From assembly GCF_900890425.1 (NCBI RefSeq), contig NZ_CAAHFG010000001.1, positions 3,100,001-3,164,000 of the forward strand: 64,000 bases of DNA. Reading direction: 5' to 3'. The translations under genes were made by a program, and so were the position numbers. Position 1 is the stretch's first letter; each line of letters begins with the position of its first letter. This stretch comes from Pontiella desulfatans. Lineage in GTDB: Bacteria > Verrucomicrobiota > Kiritimatiellia > Kiritimatiellales > Pontiellaceae. Below are positions 49,642 through 64,000 of the stretch, piece by piece. The notes under the pieces are model-generated. The model saw only the letters and a list, made by a program, of their open reading frames with translations. It was not told the DNA's origin and did no database searches.

Positions 49642-49748
49642 AGATAGTTTGAATTTAAAGAGCCAGACAGTTGAGAAACCTCGTCATTTTTATGACGGCG
49701 AAAGTCAGTCGGGGGCAAACTGGGATGGCGGCCGGTTCTTAAATTTAA

Positions 49749-49868
49749 GGTAGGGCTGGGTGTCCCCACCCCGCCGCTCGGCGGATTGGCTCAACATGCG
49801 CACGGACGCCTGTCGCGTGAGTCGCGTTCCGCGCCAACGCGGTCACGCGAAGGACAGGCATCCCTACC
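49749..49868. repeat. Long composite palindromic repeat
   Basis: Outer arms GGTAGGGCTGGGTGTCC and GGACAGGCATCCCTACC pair with few mismatches. An inner perfect-looking hairpin of CGCGTGA/TCACGCG and CGCGTT/AACGCG lies at about 49814-49850. The segment CCGCCGCTCGGCGGATTGGCTC matches the degraded copy near 43890. It fills the gap between the GH43 and the phosphatase genes, which otherwise holds no gene. Confidence 0.8.
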
Positions 49869-49970
49869 CTTTCCAAAGTCATGGTTTCTTGGCACACGAC
49901 TGAACGTCACAATCAAACTTGTAGATAGGAAAGGTTAGCAGTAGTTTTCGCTTCATACCAAAGGGCAACC

Positions 49971-50819: not shown

Positions 50820-51187
50820 AGGTTTGTAACTGGTCGGTCGATCCAAATACCGAATATCGATCATCACACACAAAACGCTGCTAACGGGTGTTGAACCTCC
50901 ATTCCACACAGAAACGGCATCACGCATATAAATGTAAAGTCCTCCCTCCCCAGTAGTGATAACAAGCGTCAACAAGAGGATTTATTTGATTTATGCACAA
51001 CAAACAGACGAACCAACCGCAACACAATAATGCTCAGGCCGCAGGGTTCAGATGGTTGGCTGATTAGTAAATTTTGCACAACTAATATATTGCCACCATG
51101 GAGCTATCGTCCTTGTGAAGAGCCAGAATGCTCATACACCGAAACACATATAAAGCCCCGCGTCCCGTATAGCTCTGAGGTGATAAA
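50820..51187. other. Gene-poor boundary between metabolic region and island
   Basis: No convincing gene. A possible promoter, TTGCACAACTAATATATT (near 51075), precedes the zinc-ribbon gene. This is the likely left edge of the accessory island, but no tRNA, integrase or attachment repeat was recognised. Confidence 0.4.
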
Positions 51188-51580
51188 ATGGCAAGAGGAC
51201 GACCATACAAATGTCCATACTGCGAGGCCACGACAAACGTGGCGAAGGGATTCAGATACAACAAGGGAGGAAAAGTCAGGCTTCGGCGTTGCAAGGTTTG
51301 CGGAAGGCGCTGGACGACAGGGCCGGTGCAAGGCCAGTCATCAGCGATACCCGCTGTCGAGGATCCGGTGCCAGTACCCGACGAGTATTCGGGCAAACCT
51401 TTCGCTGATGCTCCTGATCAGGCGGAGCAACGGGAAGAGACCGATGAAAATGAAGATGAAACCGGCCATGAAACGGAATGTAGAACGGAGCTGTCGCTAA
51501 GTGGCGAAGGAAGCCCGGATCAAAACGACCCAGGCGAAGAAAGAAAAGAAGAAGCAGAAGAGATCTTCTTCGCTCAGTAA
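51188..51580 (+). CDS. Small zinc-ribbon protein with acidic tail
   Basis: 130 residues with a GAGGTGA ribosome site. The N-terminus (about 8-42) is a classic zinc ribbon: CPYC, then GFRYNKGGKVRLRRCKVCGRRW. The rest is low-complexity, rich in E, D and Q, and ends EEIFFAQ. Such ribbons occur in transposase-associated InsA-like proteins and in plasmid transcription factors, so it probably binds nucleic acid. It is convergent with the next gene. Confidence 0.65.
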   Translation: MARGRPYKCPYCEATTNVAKGFRYNKGGKVRLRRCKVCGRRWTTGPVQGQSSAIPAVEDPVPVPDEYSGKPFADAPDQAEQREETDENEDETGHETECRTELSLSGEGSPDQNDPGEERKEEAEEIFFAQ

Positions 51581-51666
51581 GAGATATGATTCCGGCAACC
51601 GAAATCACGTGATCTCTCCCGCTCTAATACAATTCAGGTCTCTGGTGATTCAGTTGCTGCCGGCCA

Positions 51667-52320
51667 TCAGGCCGGCTGCAACACCTTCGCGGTCTTAGGC
51701 ACCATGATCTGCTCATCCACGACCTTGTAGTGGTCACAGAATCCCGCAAACATGGTGACGATGTCGCCACACAGCCTGTCGAATTCCTGCACCAGCTTTA
51801 CGCGGTCGCGCAGCTTCTCCATATCCCATTCCACGAACTCTTCGTTTTCATCGAGTCCGCGACCTGGATAGGTCACTATTTGAGGTATAGGCTTGGGCAG
51901 GACACGAAGTGTGCCGTCGCACCAGTCCGTCGTACAGGGGACATCCTGCTTGTGCCAGGTTTGCTTCCCGCACATATCGCAGCGGGCGGTATGGGCATTC
52001 TTGTAGTCCAGACCTCCCTGGTAAAGCACAAGATAGCCGCTAGACCGACCGTTGAAACCCACCTGCCAGCACCATTCGCGCTCCATCGACCACTTACGGA
52101 TCAGGTTCTGAATGGCATCGGACACGTCCTCGCATTCGAGCATTCCCCATGCCTGTTCCATCTGCACCGCTGTGAGATCCAGCCTATGGATCTTCACGCA
52201 ATTGGCATAGGATGTACTCCGGTTCCAGCTGTTCATGGAGCTGTACCGAAAATGGTTTTCCAAATACTGGATCATCGCTTCCCGGCTTCTCATATCTACT
52301 TTTTCATAAAAACGTTTCAT
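51667..52320 (-). CDS. Conserved island protein with zinc-finger-like cysteines
   Basis: 217 residues from the ATG at 52320, which follows GGAGGTAA (frame opens at 52335). The N-terminal half is helical (SREAMIQYLENHFRYSS, VKIHRLDLTAVQMEQ). The middle has CDMCGKQTWHKQ...CTTDWCDGTL, two Cys pairs that could bind zinc. A helical C-terminus follows (MEKLRDRVKLVQEFDRLCGD). I do not recognise a named family. It appears with ArdC and the small unknown genes of this island and is the last gene of the minus-strand run. Confidence 0.6.
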   Translation of the reverse strand: MKRFYEKVDMRSREAMIQYLENHFRYSSMNSWNRSTSYANCVKIHRLDLTAVQMEQAWGMLECEDVSDAIQNLIRKWSMEREWCWQVGFNGRSSGYLVLYQGGLDYKNAHTARCDMCGKQTWHKQDVPCTTDWCDGTLRVLPKPIPQIVTYPGRGLDENEEFVEWDMEKLRDRVKLVQEFDRLCGDIVTMFAGFCDHYKVVDEQIMVPKTAKVLQPA

Positions 52321-52381
52321 GGTTATTACCTCCAATTAGTTGAGGGGCATCCCCCTGGGATGAGGGCTGCCCCTATATTCA

Positions 52382-53269
52382 TTATGCCATTACCGGCTCC
52401 AGCTTTTCGGCCACGATATAATCGTATGCCTTCTGCGCCTGTTGCCCGGCGGATACCAGCATGGACGGATCGGCCTTAAGCCGCTCCAACCAGCCGTTGA
52501 GATAGGCCGCAGAATTGTCTTCCACCGCTGGAAGGATTCCGCAATGGCCACAAAGGAAAGCCGCACCCATTTCGGCAACGAGTTCCTCTTTGGAATATTC
52601 ATGCGATCCAAAGCGCACCGCATCCGTCACACCTTTCCGCGCAAGGCGCGAACTGTGGCCAACGCTATGAATAATTTCATGAAAACACGTAGCGAAAAAT
52701 GCCTCGTCGCTCAGAAACATTTCCTGCGGCGGCATATGCACGGTGTCCGTCAACGGATTGTACGCTGCATAGGTGCGCCCGTATTCAATCGCTGGCTTAT
52801 TCGCCATATCCTCGATCAGCTGTTCAGCTTCCATGATCGGACATATCTCCCGATCCGGCTTTTCAAGCTTCGGAATCTTCCGTTCGGGAATGCCCTCGCA
52901 CTGCGCCACGTTGAACACGTGGTAGTAACGAAGCATTGCATAGCCCCTTTGTTTATCGGGATCCGTGCTGGTTTCATCCGGCTCCACGAATTTCCAGAAA
53001 ACCACCGGCATTGAATGCTCACCCTTTAGGACTTTTCCTCCGAGCTGGTTCGCCTGCTTCATTGTCAGGAAATACGGTTGTGCGTAGCCCATCATATGCA
53101 ACAGAAAGGCATTGACTCCCCGGTATGGTTTCCGGCTAACCAGATTTTGCGGCCGCGCATCCTGCGAGACCCATGGCTTGCGCCACGGCAGTGTTCCGGT
53201 TGCGCTGATCCGCTCAACCATTTTCTGCGTAATCATTTCATTGATCTTATTTCGTGCGTTCTTCTTCAT
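52382..53269 (-). CDS. ardC: ArdC-like antirestriction protein (ssDNA-binding plus zincin)
   Basis: 295 residues from the ATG at 53269 (GGAGGTA ribosome site; frame opens at 53320). The N-terminal ArdC domain (about 5-125: TLPWRKPW, RGVNAFLLHMMGY, FLTMKQANQLGGKVLKGE, VVFWKF, YYHVFNVAQCEGI) binds single-stranded DNA. The C-terminal zinc protease-like domain has FHEIIHSVGHSSRL (HEIIH at 197-201). ArdC proteins protect incoming plasmid DNA from restriction during conjugation, so this gene marks the region as plasmid/ICE-derived. An intrinsic terminator precedes it. Confidence 0.9.
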   Translation of the reverse strand: MKKNARNKINEMITQKMVERISATGTLPWRKPWVSQDARPQNLVSRKPYRGVNAFLLHMMGYAQPYFLTMKQANQLGGKVLKGEHSMPVVFWKFVEPDETSTDPDKQRGYAMLRYYHVFNVAQCEGIPERKIPKLEKPDREICPIMEAEQLIEDMANKPAIEYGRTYAAYNPLTDTVHMPPQEMFLSDEAFFATCFHEIIHSVGHSSRLARKGVTDAVRFGSHEYSKEELVAEMGAAFLCGHCGILPAVEDNSAAYLNGWLERLKADPSMLVSAGQQAQKAYDYIVAEKLEPVMA

Positions 53270-53283
53270 TGTATACCTCCAAT

Positions 53284-53310
53284 AAAAAAGCCGCCCGGAG
53301 TGGACGGCTT
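53284..53310 (-). terminator. Intrinsic terminator upstream of ardC
   Basis: AAGCCGCCC...GGACGGCTT forms a 9-bp stem with one mismatch and is followed on the minus strand by TTTTTT. It is 26 bases past the stop of the 53336-53683 gene and immediately before the ardC ribosome site. Confidence 0.85.
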
Positions 53311-53335
53311 GGTTCATCATTAAAAGAGCAAAGCC

Positions 53336-53683
53336 TCACGACTCCGCCCCGTTCATTATTTCTTCGTATTCTGCTTCCTCCATCGGATAAGCCTCGTATG
53401 GCAACTCCTCCAAATAGAGGGCATTGACCACCACGCGGCAATAACCGCCGTTTGCTGTCCAAATCGCCGCAGCAATCCTTGCAGCAAACTCGTCCTCGGT
53501 TTCACCACCGCACAGCCGATCCTGTGCAACGGCCTCGATCCCTTTTGCGCCATTACCGCGCTCAAAGTCCTGGAAGGACTCCTTGTCGAATGCCCATTCT
53601 TCGCAACAGGCTTCAATGATCTGCTCCCGCCGTGATTTATCAGGTTGCTCGATTTCGACACTCGCTTCGTAATACCGGCTCAT
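53336..53683 (-). CDS. Small acidic island protein, unknown function
   Basis: 115 residues, strongly acidic (SRYYEASVEIEQPDKSRREQ, ETEDEFAARIAAAIWTANGGYC, then EEAEYEEIMNGAES). A predicted alpha/beta fold is likely, but no known motif is seen. The start ATG overlaps the stop of the upstream zinc-ribbon gene (ATGA), so the two are translationally coupled. Confidence 0.6.
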   Translation of the reverse strand: MSRYYEASVEIEQPDKSRREQIIEACCEEWAFDKESFQDFERGNGAKGIEAVAQDRLCGGETEDEFAARIAAAIWTANGGYCRVVVNALYLEELPYEAYPMEEAEYEEIMNGAES

Positions 53684-53886
53684 GCTTCACCTCCGGTTAC
53701 TGTTTCAGTTTCATCCGTCTCCCATGGACATGCTTGGCAAGTCACGCCGTCAACGCCACGCTCCTGAAGGCAGGCATCGCACGGGAACAGGATTCGGTCG
53801 CACCCCGAACATTTGAACGGTTGCTGAATGCTGTAGCTGGTTTCTTCCCCACAATCGGGGCACCATTCAGTATATTCCGCATCCAT
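53680..53886 (-). CDS. Small zinc-ribbon protein
   Basis: 68 residues with three Cys pairs: CPDCGEE, CSGCDRI/CDACLQE and CQACPWE. Compact double zinc ribbon, probably nucleic-acid or protein binding. It overlaps both neighbours by a few bases (start at 53886 shared with the upstream stop, stop at 53680 overlapping the next start), so the three genes form a coupled set. Confidence 0.65.
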   Translation of the reverse strand: MDAEYTEWCPDCGEETSYSIQQPFKCSGCDRILFPCDACLQERGVDGVTCQACPWETDETETVTGGEA

Positions 53887-54173
53887 CAGTATTCCTCCGG
53901 CAGAAGAATGGTCGTCAGACTTCTATCTGATTCGGTGATAACCCAAAGCCTAACCTCCTTCTTCGTCCGATATGCACTCAACAGCCGAAGGTTGGCATCA
54001 ACCGCCTCCTCATTGGCTTGTTGGTCTTCGGCGCACACTTCGCCCCAGTCTCCACTAATATGGCGACTGATGAATTCCACCGGGCTTTGCAGTGCATCCA
54101 TCATCGCTTCGAGCGCTCCTGGAGTGGAGCAGATTTGCCCCGTATTGAATCTTGGTTTTTGTGTCATGATCAT
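53886..54173 (-). CDS. Conserved island protein (NTGQICSTPGALEAM type)
   Basis: 95 residues with a GGAGGTAA ribosome site. The sequence pattern RFNTGQICSTPGALEAM, ISGDWGEVCAEDQQANEEA and LRLLSAYRT, then WVITESDRSLTTILLPEEY, belongs to a widespread family of plasmid/ICE-carried proteins of unknown function. Its presence supports the mobile-element origin of this region. A terminator lies just before it. Confidence 0.7.
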   Translation of the reverse strand: MIMTQKPRFNTGQICSTPGALEAMMDALQSPVEFISRHISGDWGEVCAEDQQANEEAVDANLRLLSAYRTKKEVRLWVITESDRSLTTILLPEEY

Positions 54174-54191
54174 TGCTTACCTCCATACATT

Positions 54192-54218
54192 AAAAAGGCG
54201 CCCCACCATGGGACGCCT
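54192..54218 (-). terminator. Intrinsic terminator
   Basis: AGGCGCCCC...GGGACGCCT stem with one mismatch and a CATGG-type loop, followed on the minus strand by TTTTT. It lies about 96 bases past the stop of the 54314 gene and upstream of the 54173 start. Confidence 0.8.
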
Positions 54219-54313
54219 ATATTCAGCTCAACCGCTCACGCGGCTGTTTTACACATTTGAAAAACAGGCCGGAGAATTCCCCTGCCCGCCTTGGTTATTC
54301 CCTACTTCTCCAG

Positions 54314-54562
54314 TCAACAGTAGATGTTGATATCATCCGGTTGTTCCTCCGCTATCTTCAGGGCTACCGCCCCGGCGATACGGCAAAGCTCCGGCGGCTC
54401 GTTGAACTGGCCTTCCTTCAGACCAACCTCGAAACACTCGGCATCGATCACCACCTGACGTTCACCCGTCAGTTGGCAATAGGGAGCCTTGGCCTCGAAC
54501 GCATCCACGATGGAAACGTTTTCAACGTTCACGTAGAGCGTCTTTCCAATCGTGATCTTCAT
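54314..54562 (-). CDS. Small island protein, unknown function
   Basis: 82 residues from the ATG at 54562, which overlaps the stop of the upstream gene. The sequence (MKITIGKTLYVNVENVSIVD, YCQLTGERQVVIDAECFEVG) suggests a small beta-rich protein. No family was recognised. Confidence 0.5.
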   Translation of the reverse strand: MKITIGKTLYVNVENVSIVDAFEAKAPYCQLTGERQVVIDAECFEVGLKEGQFNEPPELCRIAGAVALKIAEEQPDDINIYC

Positions 54563-54864
54563 TGTCCGTCCCTCCGTTTCAGCCAGTCCGACACCGTTGT
54601 ATCTTCCCACTTCAGTACAATGGCACCATCGGGCACCACCACTTCGGCAATACTGCCGTCATCGTTGAACCGGATGCTGACCGCCGACTCGGTCTCTTGA
54701 TCAACCCCTGCCGGATAGACCAGCAGCTGCATTTGCTCCTCTATCTCGCCAAACACATCCTGCGCAACCAGCACGGGATGGGGATTGCCTGGAACGTCGA
54801 TGTCCAGTTCCACTCCATAGGTGGATCGGGTTTCATGGAAGGTTGCTTCATATTCCTTTTTCAT
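54559..54864 (-). CDS. Small island protein, unknown function
   Basis: 101 residues, beta-rich and acidic (MKKEYEATFHETRSTYGVEL, VLVAQDVFGEIEEQM, VSIRFNDDGSIAEVVVPDGA). AAGGAAG ribosome site. Its stop overlaps the next start, so it is coupled to the 54562 gene. No recognised domain. Confidence 0.5.
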   Translation of the reverse strand: MKKEYEATFHETRSTYGVELDIDVPGNPHPVLVAQDVFGEIEEQMQLLVYPAGVDQETESAVSIRFNDDGSIAEVVVPDGAIVLKWEDTTVSDWLKRRDGQ

Positions 54865-54889
54865 GCTTGTCTTCCTTTCTATTTATGAA

Positions 54890-54923
54890 AGAAGCGCGGT
54901 GGCCATGGCCAATCGCGCTCTTC
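54890..54923. other. Hairpin between island genes
   Basis: GAAGCGCG and CGCG-CTTC arms flank a perfect GGCCATGGCC palindrome. The T-run is poor, so it may be a weak terminator or mRNA hairpin between the 54952 and 54864 genes. Confidence 0.5.
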
Positions 54924-54951
54924 AGGTTTCCTATTTGCATTTGCTACTCTG

Positions 54952-55194
54952 TCAGTCGCTTCCTGCCAGCTCGGTTTCATCAATGAACTCAAGGTATTCG
55001 TGGCCGACTTTTCCGAAATAGCGGTCAACCGCCTCTTCCTCCGGCATGCCGTCCGGAAAAACCTCTTCCGGCAGTTCTCGGCTCCACCACGACTTCACAT
55101 ACCCGTGAAGTTCATGGATCAACCGCTCCCGCGACACCGCCGCATAGACGGTTGACCCGTGCTTGTGCGATATCGCCGCCAACCATATTTTCAT
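54952..55194 (-). CDS. Small island protein, unknown function
   Basis: 80 residues with a good AAAGGAG ribosome site. It begins IWLAAISHKHGSTVYAAVSR and then has a helical acidic stretch (WWSRELPEEVFPDGMPEEEA). This kind of opening occurs in several short plasmid-borne proteins. Function unknown. Confidence 0.5.
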   Translation of the reverse strand: MKIWLAAISHKHGSTVYAAVSRERLIHELHGYVKSWWSRELPEEVFPDGMPEEEAVDRYFGKVGHEYLEFIDETELAGSD

Positions 55195-55216
55195 TAGTTA
55201 TCTCCTTTCACTGGAT

Positions 55217-56596
55217 TCATACCTTTAAGAAGCAACCGGTGAGGCTGGCCTTGCCGTTGAGTAACGCCTCCGCCATATCCTCCGGCTGCACCGACTGGTT
55301 TTCGTGGTTGGTGTCCACCACCGTATTGCCCCGCAGATGCCGCAGTAGAAACATGCTCAGGAGCAGGTTCTTCAGCGACTCGTCTTCAAGCAGGGGGAAC
55401 GGTTCGGCAAACGTCTGGTCTTTTGGAACGCGCACGAAGCGCTGATCCGAAAACCATTCACTCAGCATGGGTGCTATCTCCGCATACCGATCAGCAGCTA
55501 GCTTGGCCGTGCGCTTGACGAGGTCGGACTTTCGACCGGATATCTTCCAGCCGTGCGCCCGCAGCGCATCGCGGAACTGATCGAGAGTCTCCATCTTGCG
55601 CCATGTGATTCCAAACCTTGGAATCTGCTCCTTGCGAAGCCGCGCCGACGAATTCAACGGATAGATCCGTTGCAGATAGCGGACATTGCTAAACCGTACC
55701 GCTACTTCCTCACGATCCAGAATTTCCTGAAGCCGCGCCATTGATGCGACGAAACAATAATCGCCACCGCTCGTGCGGTAGCTCCGGGCAAACTCCTTGG
55801 CAAACTTGCGTTGCGCAACGGCATGCGTCAGCTCCGGCTCAAAATGAACCATGTTGCCATGCACCCCGCAGGAATATTTCACCTGCCCGTGGTCATGCAA
55901 ACGACCATTGTTAATCACCAGCTCAAACCAATCGATCCGGTCGCGGAACCGTAGCCGGTGCCTGTCATCGGTCAGGCCGCGCAACGCCGACACCTTGCGA
56001 AAGTTCCGGCAGCAAAGGGCTTCAAGCACCAGACTCTGCTCCTCATCCATGAAATCCCCGACCGACAACAGATTCGCCAGGTCAAGGTCGTTCATGTCGT
56101 CATAGCTGCCGACCTTCAGCTTTGGATGCTTCTGTTTCAGAAACGCCCGTAGCTCCGAAAAGCCCGACCGGCTACTACGCAGCAGGTTCCAGGCTCGCTC
56201 GTGCGACCAGTGCGAGCTGACATATTTACGAGCCAGCTTCACAATCCGGTCGTACGAGACGTCTTCCGCAAAATAGACGCCATGCCCTACCATCTCCAAT
56301 GTCCGCTCTAATGCAGTGCGCCGGTCGTGGTAGTTGCCATGCTGCGCCATGACGATTTCTGCATTAAGGTGCTGCACAGACAGGGGCTCGAAGCGGTGCT
56401 CCGCTTCGTTCAACTTGCGGCTGAAGAGTTCCGCCGCCTGGCAGTAGTCGCCCGACACGCCCATGACCGACTCCGGATGGATGCCCTTGAGCAGCACATC
56501 CTCGATCGGCACCTCGATGAGTTCGTAGCCCATACGCAAAAAAGCCGGTATCCTATGATCCGGCTCCAACCATACTTTCAATCCATATATCTTCAT
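55217..56596 (-). CDS. Large island protein with SAP-like motif, third gene of MoxR/VWA module
   Basis: 459 residues from the ATG at 56596 (GAAAGGAT ribosome site; the frame opens at 56683 inside the upstream gene). It starts 5 bases past the stop of the MoxR-type ATPase gene, so the two are in one operon. Near residue 350, FRDALRAHGWKISGRKSDLVKRTAKLA fits a SAP DNA-binding helix-extended loop-helix. The rest (VHFEPELTHAVAQRKFAKEF, GGDYCFVASMARLQEILDRE) is not recognised. It may be the substrate-specific or DNA-binding component of the ATPase/VWA complex. This is inferred only from order and the SAP-like stretch. Confidence 0.6.
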   Translation of the reverse strand: MKIYGLKVWLEPDHRIPAFLRMGYELIEVPIEDVLLKGIHPESVMGVSGDYCQAAELFSRKLNEAEHRFEPLSVQHLNAEIVMAQHGNYHDRRTALERTLEMVGHGVYFAEDVSYDRIVKLARKYVSSHWSHERAWNLLRSSRSGFSELRAFLKQKHPKLKVGSYDDMNDLDLANLLSVGDFMDEEQSLVLEALCCRNFRKVSALRGLTDDRHRLRFRDRIDWFELVINNGRLHDHGQVKYSCGVHGNMVHFEPELTHAVAQRKFAKEFARSYRTSGGDYCFVASMARLQEILDREEVAVRFSNVRYLQRIYPLNSSARLRKEQIPRFGITWRKMETLDQFRDALRAHGWKISGRKSDLVKRTAKLAADRYAEIAPMLSEWFSDQRFVRVPKDQTFAEPFPLLEDESLKNLLLSMFLLRHLRGNTVVDTNHENQSVQPEDMAEALLNGKASLTGCFLKV

Positions 56597-56600
56597 TTGA

Positions 56601-58076
56601 TTATCCTTTCCCCAGCAACGACTCGATCCGAGCCGCAGTTGATTTGATTCGTTCTGCGGTCTTGCTAATGTCAACTGCGTCAAGCCGTGGCCACATCACG
56701 AGACCACGCACTTCTTGATAGGCGATCATACGCCGCAGGTCGTCGGGTTGATCCAAGAGGGCTTCAACGCTTTCAAGCAGCTCGATGTGTTGGCCTCTTA
56801 ATCCTGGAATACTATCTGTTTCCAGGTTTTGCAGGTCGATTTGGCCGCCCACCTTTTCCAGCAGTTCCGACGGAATTTTCCCGGGATGGTTAGCTTCGAC
56901 ACGCAATGCGATATAAGCCAAAGGCGTGATCGACTCCGACGTGTCGCACAGGTCGTTCCACGCCTTGAGCTTCACCATTTCCGACAGGTTTTCACCGAGC
57001 AGGATTTCTGCCTTCTCGAACAGGTCGGTTGTCGTGAACAGCCGATAGACCGTCTCCACCCGTTGGAAGTTTCCGCCTTCGCTGAAATAGTCCGCCAACA
57101 AATCCAGGCAGACCTCCACCTTGTGCAGCATTTCCTCGCGGTTGATCCCTTCGTCGTTCAATCCCATGGGGATGCTCGACAGGATCACCTTCTTCGCGCT
57201 CTGCGCAAATGCAGGCAGATAGTTTCCATACAATGCCTGCCGTGCCAGCTCGATTGCCCGGTTGGCTAGCAGGTTGCGGTAGATGAAACCCAACCGACGT
57301 CCATCCAGCTTAACGTTGCCGTCCGTCTCCTTCATTACCAGCACCGCCAGTCTGGAGAGGAATTCACCCAATGATTGGAAATCCTTTTCCAATGATTGGA
57401 AAAGCGATCCCGCCATTAAGAGGACTTCGCGGATCTGCTTTCCAGTTGCAACCGTCTGCTCCTTGCCAACGGTTTTGGTTTCCGACTGCGGGCACCATTC
57501 TCCAATGCTTGGTGCATCGTCGCCATTGATATGGCGCAGCACCTTGATGCGGTCTTCTTCATCCATATCCAACGCTTCCGGTGGATAAAGGAAGATGGCG
57601 TAGCGACCGATCAATGCGGCATCCATCTGCTGGGTGCCATTGTACTGCCGTCCCATCGGATTCATGGCGCTCCAGACCCATTTAACCTCGGTCTCAAATC
57701 CCATGATCTTGCGGGAACGGATAATCTCCAGCCATTTGGCCTGCAGTTCGGGAACCGCGCGGTTGATCTCATCGATCAGCACAAACTGCTTGTCCCATAC
57801 CGTGACTGCACTCGGCACATATTCCACTCGCCCCTGTTTCAGGCTCTCCACATTCGGGAAACCCAGGACGTCTTCAAACAATGCCTTGCTGGCATCGTAG
57901 GCCATGAACCTCCAGTCCATCGCCTGCGCAATTTTTCCCGCTGCATGGGTCTTGGCCGCGCCATGCGCGCCGACCATCAGCAGCGGATCGCCTGTCAACA
58001 GCGAGGCCATTGCCAGGTTTTCATCTTCCAGGCTCCATCCATAGATGCCCAGTTGTTCCAGTAGTTTTGTATTCAT
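56601..58076 (-). CDS. MoxR-type AAA+ ATPase
   Basis: 491 residues, AAGGAGC ribosome site. The N-terminal AAA+ core has Walker A VGAHGAAKTH (35-44), Walker B FVLIDEINRA (98-107) and sensor I WSAMNP (135-140). This pattern belongs to the MoxR/RavA group rather than to helicases. The C-terminal half is helical and not recognised. MoxR proteins act as chaperones that load or activate VWA-domain partners. A VWA/metallopeptidase protein is encoded just upstream at 58548-59834 and an unknown SAP-like protein just downstream. Confidence 0.85.
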   Translation of the reverse strand: MNTKLLEQLGIYGWSLEDENLAMASLLTGDPLLMVGAHGAAKTHAAGKIAQAMDWRFMAYDASKALFEDVLGFPNVESLKQGRVEYVPSAVTVWDKQFVLIDEINRAVPELQAKWLEIIRSRKIMGFETEVKWVWSAMNPMGRQYNGTQQMDAALIGRYAIFLYPPEALDMDEEDRIKVLRHINGDDAPSIGEWCPQSETKTVGKEQTVATGKQIREVLLMAGSLFQSLEKDFQSLGEFLSRLAVLVMKETDGNVKLDGRRLGFIYRNLLANRAIELARQALYGNYLPAFAQSAKKVILSSIPMGLNDEGINREEMLHKVEVCLDLLADYFSEGGNFQRVETVYRLFTTTDLFEKAEILLGENLSEMVKLKAWNDLCDTSESITPLAYIALRVEANHPGKIPSELLEKVGGQIDLQNLETDSIPGLRGQHIELLESVEALLDQPDDLRRMIAYQEVRGLVMWPRLDAVDISKTAERIKSTAARIESLLGKG

Positions 58077-58105
58077 TCTATTGCTCCTTGTTTATGTGTA
58101 GGCAC

Positions 58106-58147
58106 AAAAAAAGAGCCGACCCGGCATTTCTGCCCAATCGGCTCTTT
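58106..58147 (-). terminator. Intrinsic terminator between zinc-binding gene and MoxR gene
   Basis: AAAGAGCCGA...TCGGCTCTTT forms a 10-bp perfect stem and is followed on the minus strand by a T-run. It lies 20 bases past the stop of the 58168 gene. Partial read-through could set the ratio of the VWA protein to the ATPase. Confidence 0.8.
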
Positions 58148-58167
58148 ACGATTTTGATGTTTCATGT

Positions 58168-58551
58168 TCAGTCTCCGCTTGTCTCTCCTTCCTGCATTTT
58201 CTCCAGCGCGTCCACGACGCCCGGTTCGACAAACGCCACCGGTGATTTTATCTCCACATCGAAGATACGGTCGGCGGCCGCCTTTCGGATATGGACGATG
58301 CGCCCGGTGCGATAGGCATCCTGCGGTTTTATCGTTCCGTCAGTGAATGTGGATTTTTCAGGATCGCATTCAACGAGCGCGATATATCCCTTCTCCCACT
58401 GCTTCGCATGCTCCGGACACAAGTCCCATCCCGTGACCGTCTTCCGCTCCAGCGTGTTCCGCAGGCGCTTGTCCAGCAAGATTGCTCCCGTATCGAAGGC
58501 TTGACCGCAAACCGGACACACCTTTTGTTCCATTCCAACATGGCTCTTCAT
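58168..58551 (-). CDS. Small zinc-binding island protein
   Basis: 127 residues, GAAGGAGC ribosome site. CPVCGQAFDTGAILLDKRL near the N-terminus and LCPEH further on form a probable zinc site. The rest is beta-rich (GYIALVECDPEKSTFTDG, VEIKSPVAFVEPGVVDAL). It resembles short plasmid/ICE-borne proteins that begin with CPVCG. It overlaps the stop of the VWA gene (ATGA), so it is translationally coupled to it. Confidence 0.6.
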   Translation of the reverse strand: MKSHVGMEQKVCPVCGQAFDTGAILLDKRLRNTLERKTVTGWDLCPEHAKQWEKGYIALVECDPEKSTFTDGTIKPQDAYRTGRIVHIRKAAADRIFDVEIKSPVAFVEPGVVDALEKMQEGETSGD

Positions 58552-59834
58552 TTTATTGCTCCTTCTGTTATTTCATTCAGGTTCATGACCTCCCCAAACG
58601 GCCGCAACACGTCTCCGTTGTTGTGATTGCCAAACAGGATGGTCAGTAGTTGGATGCCGGCTTCATGCAAGGCCGACTGGTTCGTTTCACTCATTGTGGC
58701 ATAGCCGTCGGTAATGATTACCGCCCGCGTGAATTCCTCGGTGAGGATCGTTTTTGCGATGCAGTTAAAGTCGGTGCCGTAGGTGGTCTCCACATAGCCG
58801 CGCAATAGCGCGTCCATTGTGATTTCCGAAACCGCATTGCTGAACTGGTAGACCGAGCGAATATTTCTCCGATACCTTGCCAGCAGCCCGACGATCCCCG
58901 GCAACGACTGGTTTACCGATCCCGATACATCGAGAAAAATGGCAATGCCTTCCCGACTGTTCTTAATCTCCGGCTGACGGTTCCGAAAGAACCCCGGCCA
59001 GATATCCGCGCTTAGCAACACCATGTCGCGTCGGCACGGATTGATAGGAAACGGCGACGTTGTTCGTCGCATTTCGCGTTCCGTGCAAAAAAAAGCATCT
59101 AGCCGTTTGCGGGTGCTGTAGTTCAATAGCAACTCCTGGCGAATGCTTCGCTTCGTCTTCATGATCTCAACAATCATTTTCCGAAGACTGTCGAACATGC
59201 CTCCACTGCAACCGCTATGCTCCTGCACTCGTGTCCCGATCTCTTGGGCAATGTCTTGCAACTGTTCTGAGTTCCAATGATTGGCCGCGCCATGCGAACC
59301 GATTAGTTTCGGTCGGCCGGCGGATTGCGGCACCAACATCTTCAGGGTCTGGATCACCTCCCCCGCGCTGAGCACATCGTGGTGCGTCCATTTCGGATAA
59401 AGATGCTGATATAGATAGCTGTACCGGCTGTTCCGATGCTTGCTGTTTGGTCGAAGGATTGATTCCAATCCCTGGACATTATAGAAACGCTCAAACAACG
59501 AACCGCCACCCGACGACTGGCCGTAGAACTGACTGATCAACGCGTTGATGATCGCGTCGCAGGCAATATTGCTGATTTCATCCCGCTTATGGACAAAGTG
59601 CCCAAATGCCGGATGCAGAATTTCATGAAAGACAAGGCAGAACAAATCCTGCTCCGTCTTCACATGCTCCGAAACAAAGTCCGGATTGTATTTCATGGTT
59701 CCCGTGGCATTGATACATGCCGTCGGGATTTTGGGATCGGCCTTCACCGAAGCCACGATCCCCGCAACAAACGAATCCGCGCCCAACTCGCGCTTCATCA
59801 TCTGCCGTACTGTTTCCAATGTAATCAGGTGCAT
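58548..59834 (-). CDS. VWA / metallopeptidase-like protein (DUF2201 type)
   Basis: 428 residues, GGAGGG ribosome site. The N-terminal part has a zincin-like motif FHEILHPAFGH (HEILH at 70-74, His79), typical of the putative metallopeptidase half of DUF2201 proteins. The C-terminal part is a VWA fold with MIDAS IAIFLDVSGSVNQS (Asp302, Ser304, Ser306) and IITDGYATMSE. Such proteins pair with MoxR-type ATPases. The ATPase gene is downstream in the same run. First gene of the ATPase/VWA module. The role (metal insertion, protease or defence) is unknown. Confidence 0.85.
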   Translation of the reverse strand: MHLITLETVRQMMKRELGADSFVAGIVASVKADPKIPTACINATGTMKYNPDFVSEHVKTEQDLFCLVFHEILHPAFGHFVHKRDEISNIACDAIINALISQFYGQSSGGGSLFERFYNVQGLESILRPNSKHRNSRYSYLYQHLYPKWTHHDVLSAGEVIQTLKMLVPQSAGRPKLIGSHGAANHWNSEQLQDIAQEIGTRVQEHSGCSGGMFDSLRKMIVEIMKTKRSIRQELLLNYSTRKRLDAFFCTEREMRRTTSPFPINPCRRDMVLLSADIWPGFFRNRQPEIKNSREGIAIFLDVSGSVNQSLPGIVGLLARYRRNIRSVYQFSNAVSEITMDALLRGYVETTYGTDFNCIAKTILTEEFTRAVIITDGYATMSETNQSALHEAGIQLLTILFGNHNNGDVLRPFGEVMNLNEITEGAIK

Positions 59835-59856
59835 AGCACCCTCCTTTCCTGTTGGT

Positions 59857-60456
59857 TTAGTTTTCGTGTATTTGGTGTATTTCGTGGTTCAAATTCATCT
59901 GCGTTATCCGCGTGATCTGCGGTCAAAATATTTCCGTGTAGTCGGTATATTCAGTGGTTAAACAGGGTTTTAGAAATGCATAGCGGTCGCTACATAAATG
60001 GTTCCTCTCGACGGGGAACGTGTTTACAGATCAAGGTTCGGCGAAGCCGTAAACCTCAAGGCGAATCCACTGTGTTCAGCCGGATATCGGCATCAGCTCT
60101 TTCGCGAAAAACTCGTTCAAGCATATGGCATCAAACGGTTTTTTGTTAATCGAATAGTTTACATATGGAACCACGGGCAGGTTCCTGAGGGATTTAATGT
60201 AGCCACCAAAAAGCGCAGAGAAACGCAAAGACAGTCCGTACGATTTCTTTGTTTTCTATGCGTGCTCTCGCGGCCAATTATTTTGGAATCACGAGCAGGC
60301 TCCGGTGGGAGTTAATTATGAAACCACTAATGGACACTGATAGACACTAATTGAAGGGGATCTCGTATTTGAATATCTGCGTTGTTCCGCGTTCATCTGC
60401 GGGCAATACTTTCCAGTTTGTTTCGTGTGTTTAGTGTATTTCGTGGTTGGATATTA
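59857..60456. repeat. Gene-poor block of interspersed environmental-type repeats
   Basis: Fragments like tttcgtgtatttggtgtatt (59867), cgtgtgtttagtgtatttcg (60424) and ccaaaaagcgcagagaaacg (60206), and two ctgcgtt...ctgcgg segments (59902-59923, 60381-60401), recur in this 600-base stretch. They are similar to the cacgaa palindrome at 13671. Part of the block pairs as inverted copies. The frame at 59998-60315 is not convincing as a gene. No protein gene was recognised in the block. Confidence 0.6.
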
Positions 60457-60489
60457 AAAAAGGAGTAAAGGCATAATCGCCCTTACTCC
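60455..60489 (-). terminator. Intrinsic terminator of the small coiled-coil gene
   Basis: GGAGTAAAGGC (60462-60472) pairs with GCCCTTACTCC (60479-60489) with one mismatch. The minus strand then has a T-run (60461 to 60455). The stem includes the stop codon of the 60483 gene. Confidence 0.8.
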
Positions 60490-60662
60490 TGGTTGTAGGT
60501 CTCGCGGTATTCCTGCCAAAACTCCCGCTCCCTGAAGTGCTCCAGCTCATTCTGGAGTATGTTCAGAATTTTCGAGACATCCGATCGGATGTCCAGCAGG
60601 TGGCGGTCGATATCCGCAAGCTTTGCTTCGAGTGCATCAACACTCTGCTGATCTGCTTTCAT
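60483..60662 (-). CDS. Small coiled-coil protein
   Basis: 59 residues (MKADQQSVDALEAKLADIDR ... EYRETYNQE). Nearly entirely helical with a heptad-like pattern (VDALEAKLADIDRHLLDIRS, VSKILNILQNELEHF), so probably a coiled coil. A terminator hairpin overlaps its stop. It is only 95 bases downstream of the ImmA/IrrE gene stop on the same strand and could be the tail of that operon. No clear ribosome site was seen. Function unknown. Confidence 0.55.
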   Translation of the reverse strand: MKADQQSVDALEAKLADIDRHLLDIRSDVSKILNILQNELEHFREREFWQEYRETYNQE

Positions 60663-60757
60663 AACTACTCAAAAGTAGTCGCAGTTTATAAATATTTCGT
60701 TGAGCAAGAATCTGCTTTAGCAACAATAAGTTACTCACTTGGAAGCAAACGGCATTC

Positions 60758-61678
60758 CTACAAACAAATTTGGGGTGCTATAGGATTCATATAAACCGCC
60801 AGAGTCAGTATCTTGTAGCTATTTGAAAAACTCTCCATCCGAAAATAATGAGCCTCTCCATTATCGTCCAACACCGTAGCCTCCACTTCACCCAACAAAC
60901 CGCCCTTTCTTTGTGAGCAATACCCACGGATCAAGTCAAACGCCTGATGTTGATCAAAATTTGAAAATCGATTTCGGAAAGATTCTGAGAAAATCAAATG
61001 CTCGCATGGATTTTGGGCATTAAAAACTATGTTTGAATCAAACCAATGATCACACACCACGCCAAACATCGGAAGATGGTCGTGCGCCTGCTCCACAAAT
61101 CTATACAAAGTTGAGGTAATTGTATTTCCATAAATATTTGCAAGAGTTTTAACTGATTCAAGATTGCAGGAATAATCTGCTGCCTCTAACTTGAATCGCT
61201 CACCCAAAAAAACCAAGTTTCCCCCTCCATAATTTGCTTCATTTTCTATCTGAATTCTACAGGAGGAACTTAGAGTTTGAGCGGGGTCACCAAGACAAAA
61301 CTGCTTATGCCACGGGATGACAGAATGGGCTATTTCATGCACTTCTGCCCATCTATGTTTCAATGGTGGCATATTCTGATCAATGAGTATTTGTTTTGAA
61401 TCCGGCAACCACAACGCCTTTAAATCAGCTTTACTGATTACTTCTCCGAGCAGACTGGGTCGAGAAATCAACTGCTTCCCCGCAACCTTTATTCTATGAA
61501 TAACCTCTTGCCGGAAACCTTCGTCCGCACATGAATAATATTTCCTGTCCAATTCCAATAAATACAGTGCATCCTCTATTTTGAATGGAGGCTCAGGATT
61601 CCCCAGATCACGGAGAATCCTTTTCATTTGACCCTCTATCTCTATAGCTGTTTTTCTATCAGGAATTACATTCAGCAT
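60758..61678 (-). CDS. ImmA/IrrE-family metallo-endopeptidase
   Basis: 306 residues, AAGG before the ATG, 5 bases after the XRE gene stop. The zinc motif is HEIAH at 114-118 in AEVHEIAHSVIPWHKQF. IENEANYGGGNLVFLGERF (about 144-162) holds the third ligand Glu, as in DUF955 proteins. ImmA/IrrE proteases cleave partner repressors, usually XRE-type, to switch genes on in response to DNA damage or phage. The pairing with the XRE gene directly upstream fits this. The gene is more AT-rich than most of the window. It is part of the operon divergent from the ubiquitin-like operon. Confidence 0.88.
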   Translation of the reverse strand: MLNVIPDRKTAIEIEGQMKRILRDLGNPEPPFKIEDALYLLELDRKYYSCADEGFRQEVIHRIKVAGKQLISRPSLLGEVISKADLKALWLPDSKQILIDQNMPPLKHRWAEVHEIAHSVIPWHKQFCLGDPAQTLSSSCRIQIENEANYGGGNLVFLGERFKLEAADYSCNLESVKTLANIYGNTITSTLYRFVEQAHDHLPMFGVVCDHWFDSNIVFNAQNPCEHLIFSESFRNRFSNFDQHQAFDLIRGYCSQRKGGLLGEVEATVLDDNGEAHYFRMESFSNSYKILTLAVYMNPIAPQICL

Positions 61679-61683
61679 TATCC

Positions 61684-62223
61684 TTATCCCTTCTCACTCA
61701 AGAGGGCGATCACCTCGTTGAGGATTTGCTGTTCCTCATCATTAAGGTGATTTGCATGCTTTGCCTTCGCAGCATAACGCACAATATTTGTTTGGACATC
61801 TCCCTCCAGTGAGGTGACCGCGCCGGAAAGTTTGCTTAGAGTGTTTTCTTGTAGCTGAAAACTTCTTTCAAGATGAAAGAGCGTTCTTGGGGAAACGTCA
61901 TAATCCGGATTTGTTTCAATCTGAACGATCTCAGCAAATTCAATATCAGATTTAACTGCAAGCTCCTCTCTCGTCAACTTATCCCGTCTTCGAAGCATTT
62001 CTACGAACATTCCAAAATCCTGGAATATGGTTTTCACGTTGCCTTGCTGACGGAACTCCGTCAAAGCGTGCTTAATTATTCCTTTCCCCTGTGCTGCCAG
62101 ACCCTCTATTGCTTCTAGTTCATCATCCTTTTCGTTGATACCGCTAGCGTCTACAAGATACGAACTAAGCAGAGAAGGAGTGAACGCATCCTTGCTACCT
62201 GTTTTGTTCTCACCTGAATTCAT
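61684..62223 (-). CDS. XRE-type helix-turn-helix regulator
   Basis: About 179 residues from the ATG at 62223 (GGAG ribosome site; the frame opens at 62235). The centre (FVEMLRRRDKLTREELAVKS, IQIETNPDYDVSPRTLFHL) is a recognisable XRE HTH. It has long N-terminal (LLSSYLVDASGINEKDDELE) and C-terminal extensions. The C-terminus is helical, ending NEVIALLSEKG. It overlaps the upstream sigma-like gene by 14 bases and is followed by the ImmA/IrrE gene. Likely the repressor cleaved by that protease (inference). Confidence 0.75.
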   Translation of the reverse strand: MNSGENKTGSKDAFTPSLLSSYLVDASGINEKDDELEAIEGLAAQGKGIIKHALTEFRQQGNVKTIFQDFGMFVEMLRRRDKLTREELAVKSDIEFAEIVQIETNPDYDVSPRTLFHLERSFQLQENTLSKLSGAVTSLEGDVQTNIVRYAAKAKHANHLNDEEQQILNEVIALLSEKG

Positions 62224-62788
62224 GGTTTTCTCCATTTTCGTTGTTGTCTAACTTTCTCCTAATTCGCTTCAAGATTCGGTTATAATTTCTATCATCCAAA
62301 CTGAAGCTGTTCATTATGGCTTTTTTGCCTTTGCCACGAATCATTGATTCGAAGACATTCCAGGCGAGTTCATCGTCTGAAAAAAATAGTTTATGTGCAT
62401 GATCAAAGGCGTCCTGCTCCCTAGCGCACTCGAATACTGGACTCGTATATGTTGCAATGCGTTCTTCACTAGCTTCTTTTTCTTCAAGTACCGTCGCTCC
62501 TTGGGTCGATTTCAATCCTTTACCAGCCCACCTTCCGCCAATATTTCTGATTACCCACCAAAAATGCAACCTTAGTTCAATGCCCCGTTTCCATTTATGA
62601 TCGCAATTTAAAGTCAACATAACGGCTTCATGCAAGATGTCATTTGCCGATCCATCTCGGGATTCTCGCAGATTAGCAACCTTCCACCTTCTTTTAGCCA
62701 TTTTCATCAGATGCGCAGAATCTTCATCTGATATATTCTCTAAAAATCCGCTTATTTCTTCCTGAGTATAATATTCATTCGAGTCCAT
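62210..62788 (-). CDS. Sigma-factor-like protein
   Basis: 192 residues, AAGGGTGA ribosome site. The N-terminal part (KMAKRRWKVANLRES, ANDILHEAVMLTLNCDHKWK, LRLHFWWVIRNIGG) resembles region 2 of small sigma-70-like factors. The C-terminal part (ESMIRGKGKKAIMNSFSLDD, YNRILKRIRRKL) resembles region 4. The match to ordinary ECF factors is weak. It may recognise the promoters of the divergent operon. First gene of the leftward operon. Confidence 0.55.
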   Translation of the reverse strand: MDSNEYYTQEEISGFLENISDEDSAHLMKMAKRRWKVANLRESRDGSANDILHEAVMLTLNCDHKWKRGIELRLHFWWVIRNIGGRWAGKGLKSTQGATVLEEKEASEERIATYTSPVFECAREQDAFDHAHKLFFSDDELAWNVFESMIRGKGKKAIMNSFSLDDRNYNRILKRIRRKLDNNENGENHEFR

Positions 62789-62990
62789 TGTTCGTCACCC
62801 TTTGTCATCTGGTTTGGAGCTCCCGTTCACATGTGTATGACAAGTTCAGCCAAATTGACGGACAAAAAAGTTCAATTTTCTTTTAGGCACGCATTTTTCA
62901 AATTTGATGTCCGTTTTTTTCGCACTACCCGTCATACCGATTTGAAAGCTGCACATGGTGTGTAGCTAAGAAATTACAGGTGAAATTAGA
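62789..62990. promoter_or_regulatory. Divergent promoter/operator region of the ubiquitin-like locus
   Basis: 202 bases between two divergent operons. It contains two inverted pairs suited to dimer binding: GACGGACAAAAAAG (near 62860) with GTCCGTTTTTTTC (near 62911), and GTATGAC (near 62836) with GTCATAC (near 62932). AT-rich segments between them can hold both promoters. It is the obvious place for the XRE protein to bind. AGGTGAAATTAGA precedes the ATG at 62991. Confidence 0.6.
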
Positions 62991-63299
62991 ATGACAGAAA
63001 AACATAATGAAGCAGAAGTTGTAGAACTCGAGGTGTATGCCAAAGCCCGCAAGCCTGTACCAAAGGATTGCAAACTATTCCGTATCAGAATTGACCGGGA
63101 AAAATATCTCGTTCAGCAAGCAGCGCTTACTGGTGCGGAGTTGCTAAAGCTCGCCGACAAGAAACCGGATCAATACCGGATACTGTTTAAAAAATGCAAC
63201 GGTAAGACAGTTGAAGTCCCATTGGATACGCACTTCAGCTTCCTCGACCCCGGAATCGAACGCTTTATGACCCAAAAACGTACCGCTCAGGAGGGTTGA
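62991..63299 (+). CDS. Ubiquitin-like protein (multiubiquitin family, single domain)
   Basis: 102 residues, AGGTGA ribosome site. Residues about 27-92 form the beta-grasp domain of the bacterial multiubiquitin family (KLFRIRIDREKYLV, LTGAELLKLADKKPDQYRIL, GKTVEVPLDTHFSFLDPGIE). The family usually has two or more repeats; here there is only one. The chain ends RTAQEG, with a C-terminal glycine as needed for adenylation and transfer by an E1 enzyme. An E2-fold protein and a JAB protein follow directly, so this is the modifier of a prokaryotic ubiquitin-like pathway. Confidence 0.85.
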   Translation: MTEKHNEAEVVELEVYAKARKPVPKDCKLFRIRIDREKYLVQQAALTGAELLKLADKKPDQYRILFKKCNGKTVEVPLDTHFSFLDPGIERFMTQKRTAQEG

Positions 63300-63302
63300 T
63301 CA

Positions 63303-63701
63303 ATGCGTCGCGACTTCACCCCCTATGACGAGGATCTTGCGTACCTAGAGAGCCTTGGGACACCCTGGGAAGCTGTGCGCGAAGGAAGCCGCCTCTGGTA
63401 TATTCTTCATGAATACCAGCCTCCTACGGGGTATATACCTGAAGCAGTTTCGGCAGCATTCATGCTGCCCCCGGCCTATCCTTCCACACAAATCGACATG
63501 GTTTATTTCCACCCACCCTTAAAGCGGGGCGATGGAAAAAATCCTGCCGCCCTTGCCAACCACAATCTCGATGGAAAGCAATGGCAACGCTGGTCACGGC
63601 ATCGCCCTGCCCCGGTGGATTGGAAAGACGGTGTCGATTTTCTAGGAACCCATGTGGCCTATATTGAAGGCGTCATCTCAGCCGAAGTCGAAGGAGCATA
63701 A
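63303..63701 (+). CDS. E2-like protein (prokaryotic E2 family E type) without cysteine
   Basis: 132 residues, AGGAGGG ribosome site, 3 bases after the ubiquitin-like gene stop. GYIPEAVSAAFMLPPAYPST, IDMVYFHPPLK, then LDGKQWQRWSRH and WKDGVDFLGTHVAYIEGV follow the pattern of E2-like family E proteins found with multiubiquitin. The chain contains no Cys at all, so it cannot form the usual E2 thioester. It could be a non-catalytic E2-fold adaptor, or transfer may use another residue. Its position between the modifier and the JAB/E1-type gene supports membership in the pathway. Confidence 0.82.
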   Translation: MRRDFTPYDEDLAYLESLGTPWEAVREGSRLWYILHEYQPPTGYIPEAVSAAFMLPPAYPSTQIDMVYFHPPLKRGDGKNPAALANHNLDGKQWQRWSRHRPAPVDWKDGVDFLGTHVAYIEGVISAEVEGA

Positions 63702-63702
63702 A

Positions 63703-64000
63703 ATGCAGTACAAATTAAGAATAGCAGGCATTCATTATGCTGAATTAAGAGATGCGCTATATCCCGGCGACTGGAAAGAAGCAGGGGCTATCGCAGTTTG
63801 TGGCCGGCGTGGTTCAGAAGGATGCACCACCTTGCTCGTGCAGAAAATCCATGCAGTTCCATTTGGTGCGTATCAGTCCCGTGAACCCGACTATCTTGAG
63901 TGGGATACACAATGGATGATCGACGTTCTCAACCACGCTGAATCAGAGGATCTTTCCTTGATTAAATTCCATAGCCATCCAGGTGGCGGGTCTTTCTTTT
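63703..64000 (+). CDS. JAB/MPN isopeptidase, N-terminal part (probably fused to E1; cut by window edge)
   Basis: Starts at 63703 with GAAGGAGC just upstream, one base after the E2-like gene stop, and is still open at base 64000. The visible 99 residues hold the MPN motif: DWKEAGAIAVCGRR (Glu26) and FHSHPGGG (His90, His92), with the rest (S/D) beyond the edge. JAB proteases of this kind process or remove ubiquitin-like tags, and in these operons the JAB domain is often followed in the same chain or next gene by a ThiF/E1 domain. Whether that is so here cannot be seen. Confidence 0.85.
   Translation, partial: MQYKLRIAGIHYAELRDALYPGDWKEAGAIAVCGRRGSEGCTTLLVQKIHAVPFGAYQSREPDYLEWDTQWMIDVLNHAESEDLSLIKFHSHPGGGSFF

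Follow-up and report, generated by a model that had tools for sequence, protein, structure and literature searches.

A MoxR ATPase, a metallopeptidase-vWA protein and a lineage-specific third protein in ArdC-bearing, probably integrative elements of Pontiellaceae

Four genes in one run

We describe a run of four genes in a 64,000-nucleotide stretch of the 8.66 Mb genome of Pontiella desulfatans (contig NZ_CAAHFG010000001.1, positions 3,100,001 to 3,164,000; the whole stretch is called the window below). The genes lie on the minus strand from 59834 down to 55217 and encode, in reading order, a metallopeptidase protein with a von Willebrand factor A (vWA) region, here VWA, a small protein with a CxxC motif, a MoxR-type ATPase, here MoxR, and a 459-residue protein, here SAP459. 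Together with the gene for an ArdC-type protein, this module makes up the constant portion of elements, probably integrative, whose other genes, known defence systems included, vary. The features of the module, with what each was recognised from, are as follows.

58548..59834, minus strand: VWA, 428 amino acids, N-terminal DUF2201_N metallopeptidase domain and C-terminal vWA region with a metal-ion-dependent adhesion site (MIDAS) (open reading frame (ORF), Pfam, motifs, phrog_1314)
58168..58551, minus strand: CxxC protein, 127 amino acids, phrog_11852 family (ORF, PHROGs, motif script)
56601..58076, minus strand: MoxR-type AAA+ ATPase, 491 amino acids (ORF, Pfam, motif script)
55217..56596, minus strand: SAP459, lineage-specific third protein, 459 amino acids (ORF, profile searches)
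55493..55600, minus strand: weakly supported SAP-like helix, extended loop and helix, SAP459 residues 333-368 (PF02037, alignment, predicted helices)

A preliminary description, made from the letters of the DNA, had placed a DUF2201-type VWA protein with HEILH and MIDAS motifs, a small zinc protein, a MoxR ATPase and a 459-residue protein in one run, and all four ORFs are found as it placed them, with their motifs confirmed. In VWA, a motif script finds HEILHPAFGH at residue 70, DVSGS at 302, TYGTD at 351 and TDG at 375. The metallopeptidase domain passes its Pfam cut-off (PF13203, DUF2201_N, 30.7 bits against 23.2); the DUF2201 vWA domain fails its own (PF09967, 17 bits against 26.4), the MIDAS motif being present nonetheless. 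VWA also matches phrog_1314 over its full length (E 3.2e-27, residues 21-421 on positions 29-392 of a 394-position profile). The PHROGs label of this family, 'HNH endonuclease', looks like a misannotation, because the window's member instead combines a metallopeptidase domain with a MIDAS-bearing vWA region. The small protein has CPVC at residue 12 (motif script) and may bind zinc.

The ATPase carries a Walker A motif (GAHGAAKT at 36), a Walker B motif (LIDE at 100) and a sensor-1-like AMNP at 137, and it passes the Pfam cut-offs of both AAA_5 (33.8 bits, cut-off 22) and AAA_3 (30.7 bits, cut-off 27), with bpMoxR below its cut-off (13.4 against 27). In PHROGs it matches phrog_1297, in part, and phrog_249, labelled 'porphyrin biosynthesis' (4.8e-7). 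The latter match fits an explanation in which the module inserts a metal or cofactor in the style of CobST, NorQD or CoxDE, with SAP459 as the client; well-studied MoxR/vWA pairs, as far as they are described, include machines of this kind, and SAP459 has four invariant Cys residues. However, neither a chelatase large subunit nor any metalloenzyme family is among the scanned ORFs and the genes sit in a mobile element, and we consider this explanation highly improbable. More broadly, RavA-ViaA, NorQ-NorD and CoxD-CoxE resemble the present pair in joining a MoxR ATPase to a vWA partner that remodels a target (substrate remodelling being established, in the accounts we draw on, for NorQD and RavA-ViaA), and they differ from it in their respiratory or cofactor contexts. 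To our knowledge, their vWA partners do not carry this metallopeptidase domain.

The genes are tightly packed. In four of six copies the CxxC gene overlaps VWA, and in these four SAP459 begins 4 nt after the stop codon of MoxR (7 nt by coordinates that leave out the stop). We take the start of SAP459 as the ATG at 56596; the ORF as listed is 488 amino acids long and begins at a TTG within MoxR. None of the module proteins has an NCBIfam match above that collection's cut-offs, and profile searches of the PDB with VWA and MoxR returned nothing significant.

Recurrence of the module and the elements around it

We compared nine regions from three genomes. Regions A, which is the window, B, B3, C and D are from P. 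desulfatans itself (coordinates prefixed G000, contigs C1 and C2), and a further region is called B2. Region E is from Pontiellaceae bacterium B12227 (G019), and F and G are from Pontiella sulfatireligans F21 (G028). The full set is present in five of them: A, B (C1:1545946), D (C2:602392), E and F. Region C (C1:3425411) has VWA, the CxxC gene and MoxR with a broken SAP459 (about 7% by alignment), B3 (C1:1644938) has residues 47-459 of SAP459 with the other three genes missing, G has fragments of SAP459, and B2 has none of the module genes. The grouping of the genes is not a matter of chance: besides the window's own there are four full copies, and one in which SAP459 is broken, across three genomes, and the expectation that these genes would be found together elsewhere is thus borne out. 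It is important to read this recurrence within its range: all three module-bearing genomes are Pontiellaceae, and their independent support is thin. Within the order, SAP459 is found in 3 of 43 genomes, and close homologues of MoxR are found in the same three.

The four genes are kept as proteins under purifying selection, as is apparent from the low ratio of nonsynonymous to synonymous substitution (omega, by the Nei-Gojobori method) among copies A, B, C and E, with B3 replacing C for SAP459. Omega is 0.068-0.105 for VWA, 0.063-0.115 for MoxR, 0.064-0.122 for SAP459 and 0.033-0.101 for the CxxC protein, at synonymous distances (dS) of 0.33-1.05; for pairs with D and F it rises as high as 0.242 (SAP459, A-D), at a dS that is mostly above 1 and makes these values less reliable. 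The catalytic motifs are intact in all six VWA and all six MoxR copies, with the exception of one substitution directly before the GTD triplet in copy F. Moreover, all four genes give the same order of distances, with B, C and E near one another, A following and D and F the most distant, which is the pattern expected of genes that travel together.

Downstream of the module lie small ORFs, ArdC and p222, which with a short upstream ORF make up the rest of the conserved cluster; variable genes follow upstream.

60507..60662, minus strand: b60, ORF of 52 amino acids that precedes the module, present likewise in B, C, D, E, B3 and G (region comparison)
54952..55194, minus strand: s80, small conserved ORF downstream of SAP459, also in B and B3 (ORF, region comparison)
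54559..54864, minus strand: s101, small conserved ORF (ORF, region comparison)
54314..54562, minus strand: s98, small conserved ORF, inner ATG taken, listed ORF start 54610 (ORF, region comparison)
53886..54173, minus strand: s95, small conserved ORF with hairpins before it (ORF, folds, region comparison)
53336..53683, minus strand: s115, small conserved ORF (ORF, region comparison)
52382..53320, minus strand: ArdC-type protein, ArdcN and zincin-like MPTase-PolyVal domains, in regions A, B, D, E, F and G (Pfam)
51667..52335, minus strand: p222, final gene of the cluster's backbone, no family (ORF, Pfam, region comparison)
60758..62788, minus strand: variable genes for an M78/ImmA-type peptidase, a helix-turn-helix (HTH) protein and a 192-amino-acid protein, region A only (Pfam, PADLOC)
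62991..63701, plus strand: variable genes for multiubiquitin and E2-family-E proteins of a Bub-like operon that extends past the window end (Pfam)

The assignment of ArdC is solid (PF08401 1.4e-30, PF18818 8.4e-34), and the genes around it support the mobile island that the preliminary description had proposed. Each of the five full copies comes with ArdC and p222; ArdC is interrupted in D, and in F p222 is positioned between VWA and the CxxC gene. Beyond the window end there is a tyrosine recombinase (PF00589 3.7e-13) that adjoins a 3' fragment of tRNA-Tyr (G000:C1:3178455-3178488); the second place in the genome that matches, about 460 kb away, holds an intact tRNA-Tyr according to ARAGORN, which reports a tRNA for neither the fragment nor the window. 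No direct repeats of at least 13 bases were found between the two stretches compared, the element's precise boundaries were not located, and no relaxase is among the Pfam-scanned ORFs. The same flank has a HerA-like ATPase (G000:C1:3166045-3168042; PF01935 4.5e-14, with a match to a phage terminase family at 1.2e-11), which occurs with a 197-amino-acid partner in C, E and B2 as well, and an Orc1/Cdc6-like AAA+ protein with lid and winged-helix domains (G000:C1:3173133-3174389; Cdc6_C 1.1e-18, Cdc6_lid 9.5e-17). The Orc1/Cdc6-like gene adjoins a conserved 434-amino-acid protein and has homologues in C, E and B2; neither it nor the HerA-like gene is in regions D and F as fetched.

The remaining genes differ between copies. 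The multiubiquitin, E2, M78, HTH and 192-amino-acid genes are found in A only, of the nine regions; the M78-type peptidase matches the capP model at 1.4e-9, and the multiubiquitin (PF14452 1.5e-8) and E2 (PF14462, Prok-E2_E, 3.5e-32) genes open an operon that continues to G000:C1:3165464 with an E1-like protein and a DUF6527 protein (4.2e-13), and which we take to be of the Bub (type II bacterial ubiquitin-like) kind. PADLOC finds a complete QatABCD system in C (G000:C1:3427741-3432650), which of the nine regions is shared only with E (G019:C111:688149-693058), in both cases between b60 and the HerA-like gene. The Qat proteins of C and E are 98.6-99.2% identical whereas the nonsynonymous distance (dN) between the same two copies is 0.033 for VWA and 0.036 for MoxR, pointing to a more recent exchange of Qat. 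Beyond p222, on its downstream side, regions B and E have caspase-like genes, and in E a 526-amino-acid protein matches pAgo models over part of its length (3.4e-20); these genes are at L038:667-4038, L026:3384-6475 and L048:1479-3059.

A further cluster in the P. desulfatans genome (G000:C1:1217000-1232000) has ArdC, p222, the CxxC gene, s101 and s95 without VWA, MoxR or SAP459. The small gene had been counted as part of the module, and it is indeed present in the full copies, but the CxxC protein is a backbone gene, separable from the set of MoxR, VWA and SAP459 and not specific to it. We note that this cluster lies near genes that, named from their sequence, are RadC-like and nuclease-like.

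Judged from context, the module would serve the element, because it is constant with ArdC while the other genes change. The main rival to a role in the service of the element is a defence system in which the vWA-linked peptidase is the effector, MoxR the switch and SAP459 a sensor of foreign DNA. The model for such a system is the MoxR-vWA ternary conflict systems, which, in the description of PMC7159879 (eLife 2020), have VMAP, iSTAND, FtsH or a beta-propeller as third component and are marked by variable effectors; PMC12839542 likewise describes MoxR-vWA systems, there with peptidases as effectors and a third component of the iSTAND kind. As described there, the ternary systems share with the present module the two-component core of MoxR and vWA and the presence of a constant third protein. 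Qat, Bub-like and caspase-like genes lie close by in the elements, and PADLOC gives SAP459 two sub-significant matches (AbiEi, E 0.0075; PDC-M54A, 0.012). On the other side, SAP459 has no match to any of the four kinds (VMAP, iSTAND, FtsH or propeller) in Pfam up to E 10, and a PADLOC search up to E 1 matches no model to VWA, MoxR or the CxxC protein. Furthermore, the module has no variable C-terminal effectors, its peptidase domain being N-terminal and constant, and no turnover of an effector is seen: the five other VWA copies are 72-88% identical to the window's over the whole length of the protein (the vWA match ending at residue 419 of 428), in contrast to the variable effectors of the published systems. 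The defence role that had been offered for these genes is supported by none of the searches, and the module is conserved while the defence genes change; we consider such a role possible but unlikely.

SAP459 and its SAP-like stretch

The third protein had been read as directing the ATPase and its partner to DNA by a SAP-like stretch, and here the evidence is divided. PF02037 (SAP) matches the window's SAP459 at E 0.0035 and 17.4 bits, below the curated cut-off of 23.9, over 21 aligned residues. The same family matches all six SAP459 members (best E 0.00066) and is the sole recurring Pfam match, and the key positions of the motif are invariant in an alignment of the six sequences, which are so closely related that this support counts as one observation and not six. 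Helices are predicted at residues 338-347 and 356-384, and a model of the crop 300-459 places a helix-loop-helix at residues 338-384 with a predicted local distance difference test score (pLDDT) of 82-87. The SAP motif is weakly supported, by a sub-threshold profile match and a local predicted fold: the match recurs among the homologues and a helix-loop-helix is predicted at the place, and the match of the window's own protein falls short.

Structure prediction takes this little further. AlphaFold2 run on all six sequences gives a mean pLDDT of 49.7, and a Foldseek search of the PDB with the full model finds nothing at E <=0.001. The crop has a mean pLDDT of 60.7 and no fold match at E 0.001, its best match being a TetR-type protein (Z 3.4, root-mean-square deviation 4.1, 84 aligned residues); SAP folds are not listed among its matches, an absence that does not exclude them. 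Profiles of SAP459, of its C-terminal crop and of the SAP segment, searched against the sequences of the PDB, gave nothing significant. The short, sub-threshold match and the lack of a structural match are what one would see if the likeness to SAP were accidental and SAP459 were some unrelated adaptor or substrate, an explanation that overlaps the reading we prefer in leaving the role of the module otherwise the same. The recurrence of the match in all six members with invariant key positions, albeit in close relatives that are not independent, and the local prediction of a helix-loop-helix argue against it, and we think a chance resemblance unlikely.

Relatives of SAP459 are confined to the family in the collections searched. 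Its profile, run against 387 genomes of the phylum, finds two of the three module genomes and one doubtful place, with G028 absent among the matches. A weak match to SAP459 in genome G084 (E 0.0018), whose frame is broken by stops, and one to the CxxC protein in genome G405 (E 0.0027) are not counted as relatives. A scan of the GTDB species collection for SAP459 gives two loci, both Pontiellaceae, by a short-peptide seeding that would miss distant relatives.

Relatives elsewhere and the possible role of the module

The other proteins have relatives in phages. Forty-five phage records (35 Vibrio and 10 Pseudomonas) have relatives of the CxxC protein; in Vibrio phage D505 such a relative lies about 4 kb from adjacent genes of the phrog_1297 (ATPase) and phrog_1314 families, and genes of the same two families are adjacent in Klebsiella phage KaOmega. 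The similarity is low, VWA being 27.5% identical to the best phage record over 30% of its length. Neither SAP459 nor MoxR was found in phage and plasmid records, nor VWA in plasmid records. Profiles of SAP459, the CxxC protein and VWA found no relatives in viral contigs, in a short-peptide-seeded scan that also missed the phage relatives shown by tblastn and PHROGs.

The closest described pair is that of the group 2.2 jumbo phages, in which, by the description in PMC7824862 (Viruses 2021), a MoxR ATPase has as its partner a vWA protein with a metallopeptidase domain at the N terminus, and for which a role in virion assembly and processing was proposed from sequence alone. The pair encoded here differs from it in lying in a probably integrated bacterial element with ArdC, in the presence of SAP459 and of a CxxC gene between VWA and MoxR, and in its low similarity. 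This likeness raises the possibility that the module acts as a chaperone when a cryptic virus or satellite assembles or packages its virions, maturing a structural protein as proposed for the jumbo phages. The lengthwise match of VWA to phrog_1314, the partial match of MoxR to phrog_1297, the adjacency of these families in two phages with the CxxC family near the pair in one of them, and the terminase-family match of the HerA-like protein are consistent with such a role. But no virion or structural-gene family is recognised among the Pfam-scanned ORFs of the element (several ORFs have no family, and the absence does not amount to an exclusion), and the HerA-like gene is missing from D and F as fetched; we consider a virion role very unlikely.

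Distant relatives are found within the phylum as well. The VWA profile matches 8 of the 387 genomes, six of them distant, and of seven vWA loci fetched from those six, five have a MoxR match near the DUF2201-type vWA gene. These loci differ from the module in having MoxR first, a different small gene between the two in four, and no SAP459 in any of the seven. We dropped SAP459 as a homologue of that small gene, for which phmmer gives no match. In four loci (L073, L076, L077 and L074, the last on a short contig without MoxR) a MetK-like gene, named from its sequence, lies near the DUF2201-type vWA gene; an association of MoxR, a DUF2201-type vWA protein and a MetK-like protein is one that we have not seen named.

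We propose, tentatively and with a probability of about 0.42, that the module is a MoxR/vWA remodeller or protease that serves the element, a constant part of the backbone of Pontiellaceae integrative elements with SAP459 as an adaptor that tethers it to DNA. In such a machine, MoxR would form an ATP-driven ring, the vWA protein would bind the ring through its MIDAS site and bring the zincin domain, and SAP459 would hold the complex on DNA by its SAP-like motif. A protein on the DNA of the element, such as a repressor, a complex for replication or transfer, or a protein with which the host attacks an incoming element, could then be pulled apart or cut, to the benefit of the element's establishment, maintenance or movement. 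The conservation and constraint of the genes, their intact catalytic motifs, their recurrence with ArdC and other backbone genes and the variability of their neighbours are what speak for this proposal.

Several points weigh against it. Complex formation, DNA binding, proteolysis, the target and the benefit to the element are inferred. The SAP match of the window's protein is below the cut-off and 21 residues long, with no SAP structure found by sequence or by fold. VWA, MoxR and SAP459 are dispensable for an ArdC cluster as such, one cluster of the same genome being without them. Finally, copy C keeps VWA and MoxR despite a broken SAP459 and with no ArdC found; the pair may be useful without SAP459, or the loss may be recent. 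Taken together, the observations of the preliminary description hold and its interpretation is supported in part.

In a bolder form of the proposal, SAP459 would be the defining part of a hitherto undescribed class of MoxR-vWA ternary machine: an AAA+ protease of mobile elements, tethered to DNA, which, alongside ArdC, would clear or cut proteins from the DNA of the element on cell entry (for example host restriction or silencing proteins) and be retained as backbone while defence genes are exchanged; we consider this speculative and quite unlikely. With either form, peptidase-bearing MoxR/vWA pairs, known from accounts of jumbo phages, here recur in bacterial mobile elements with ArdC and possibly a DNA-binding third protein, which makes action on DNA-bound proteins for the element a testable proposal for such pairs and identifies this element family of the Pontiellaceae as one that carries interchangeable defence systems. 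The open-licence literature searched (MoxR with DUF2201, VWA, phage, metallopeptidase, ArdC, integrative and conjugative elements or SAP domain, and Pontiella mobile elements) yielded no report of the module.

A last observation concerns the spaces between the genes of the cluster. No RNA was found by Rfam within 48000-64000. Strong hairpins with T runs lie at 58077-58170, 60440-60509, 54174-54316 and 53273-53340, and, with conservation judged from folds, they are present between the CxxC gene and MoxR in five of six copies examined, 3' of b60 in four of four, before s95 in four of four and before ArdC in three of four. Terminator-like matches across the region number 13, compared to a mean of 8.9 (standard deviation 3.5) in shuffled sequence, which is no clear enrichment. 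The intergenic hairpins may hint at control by antitermination.

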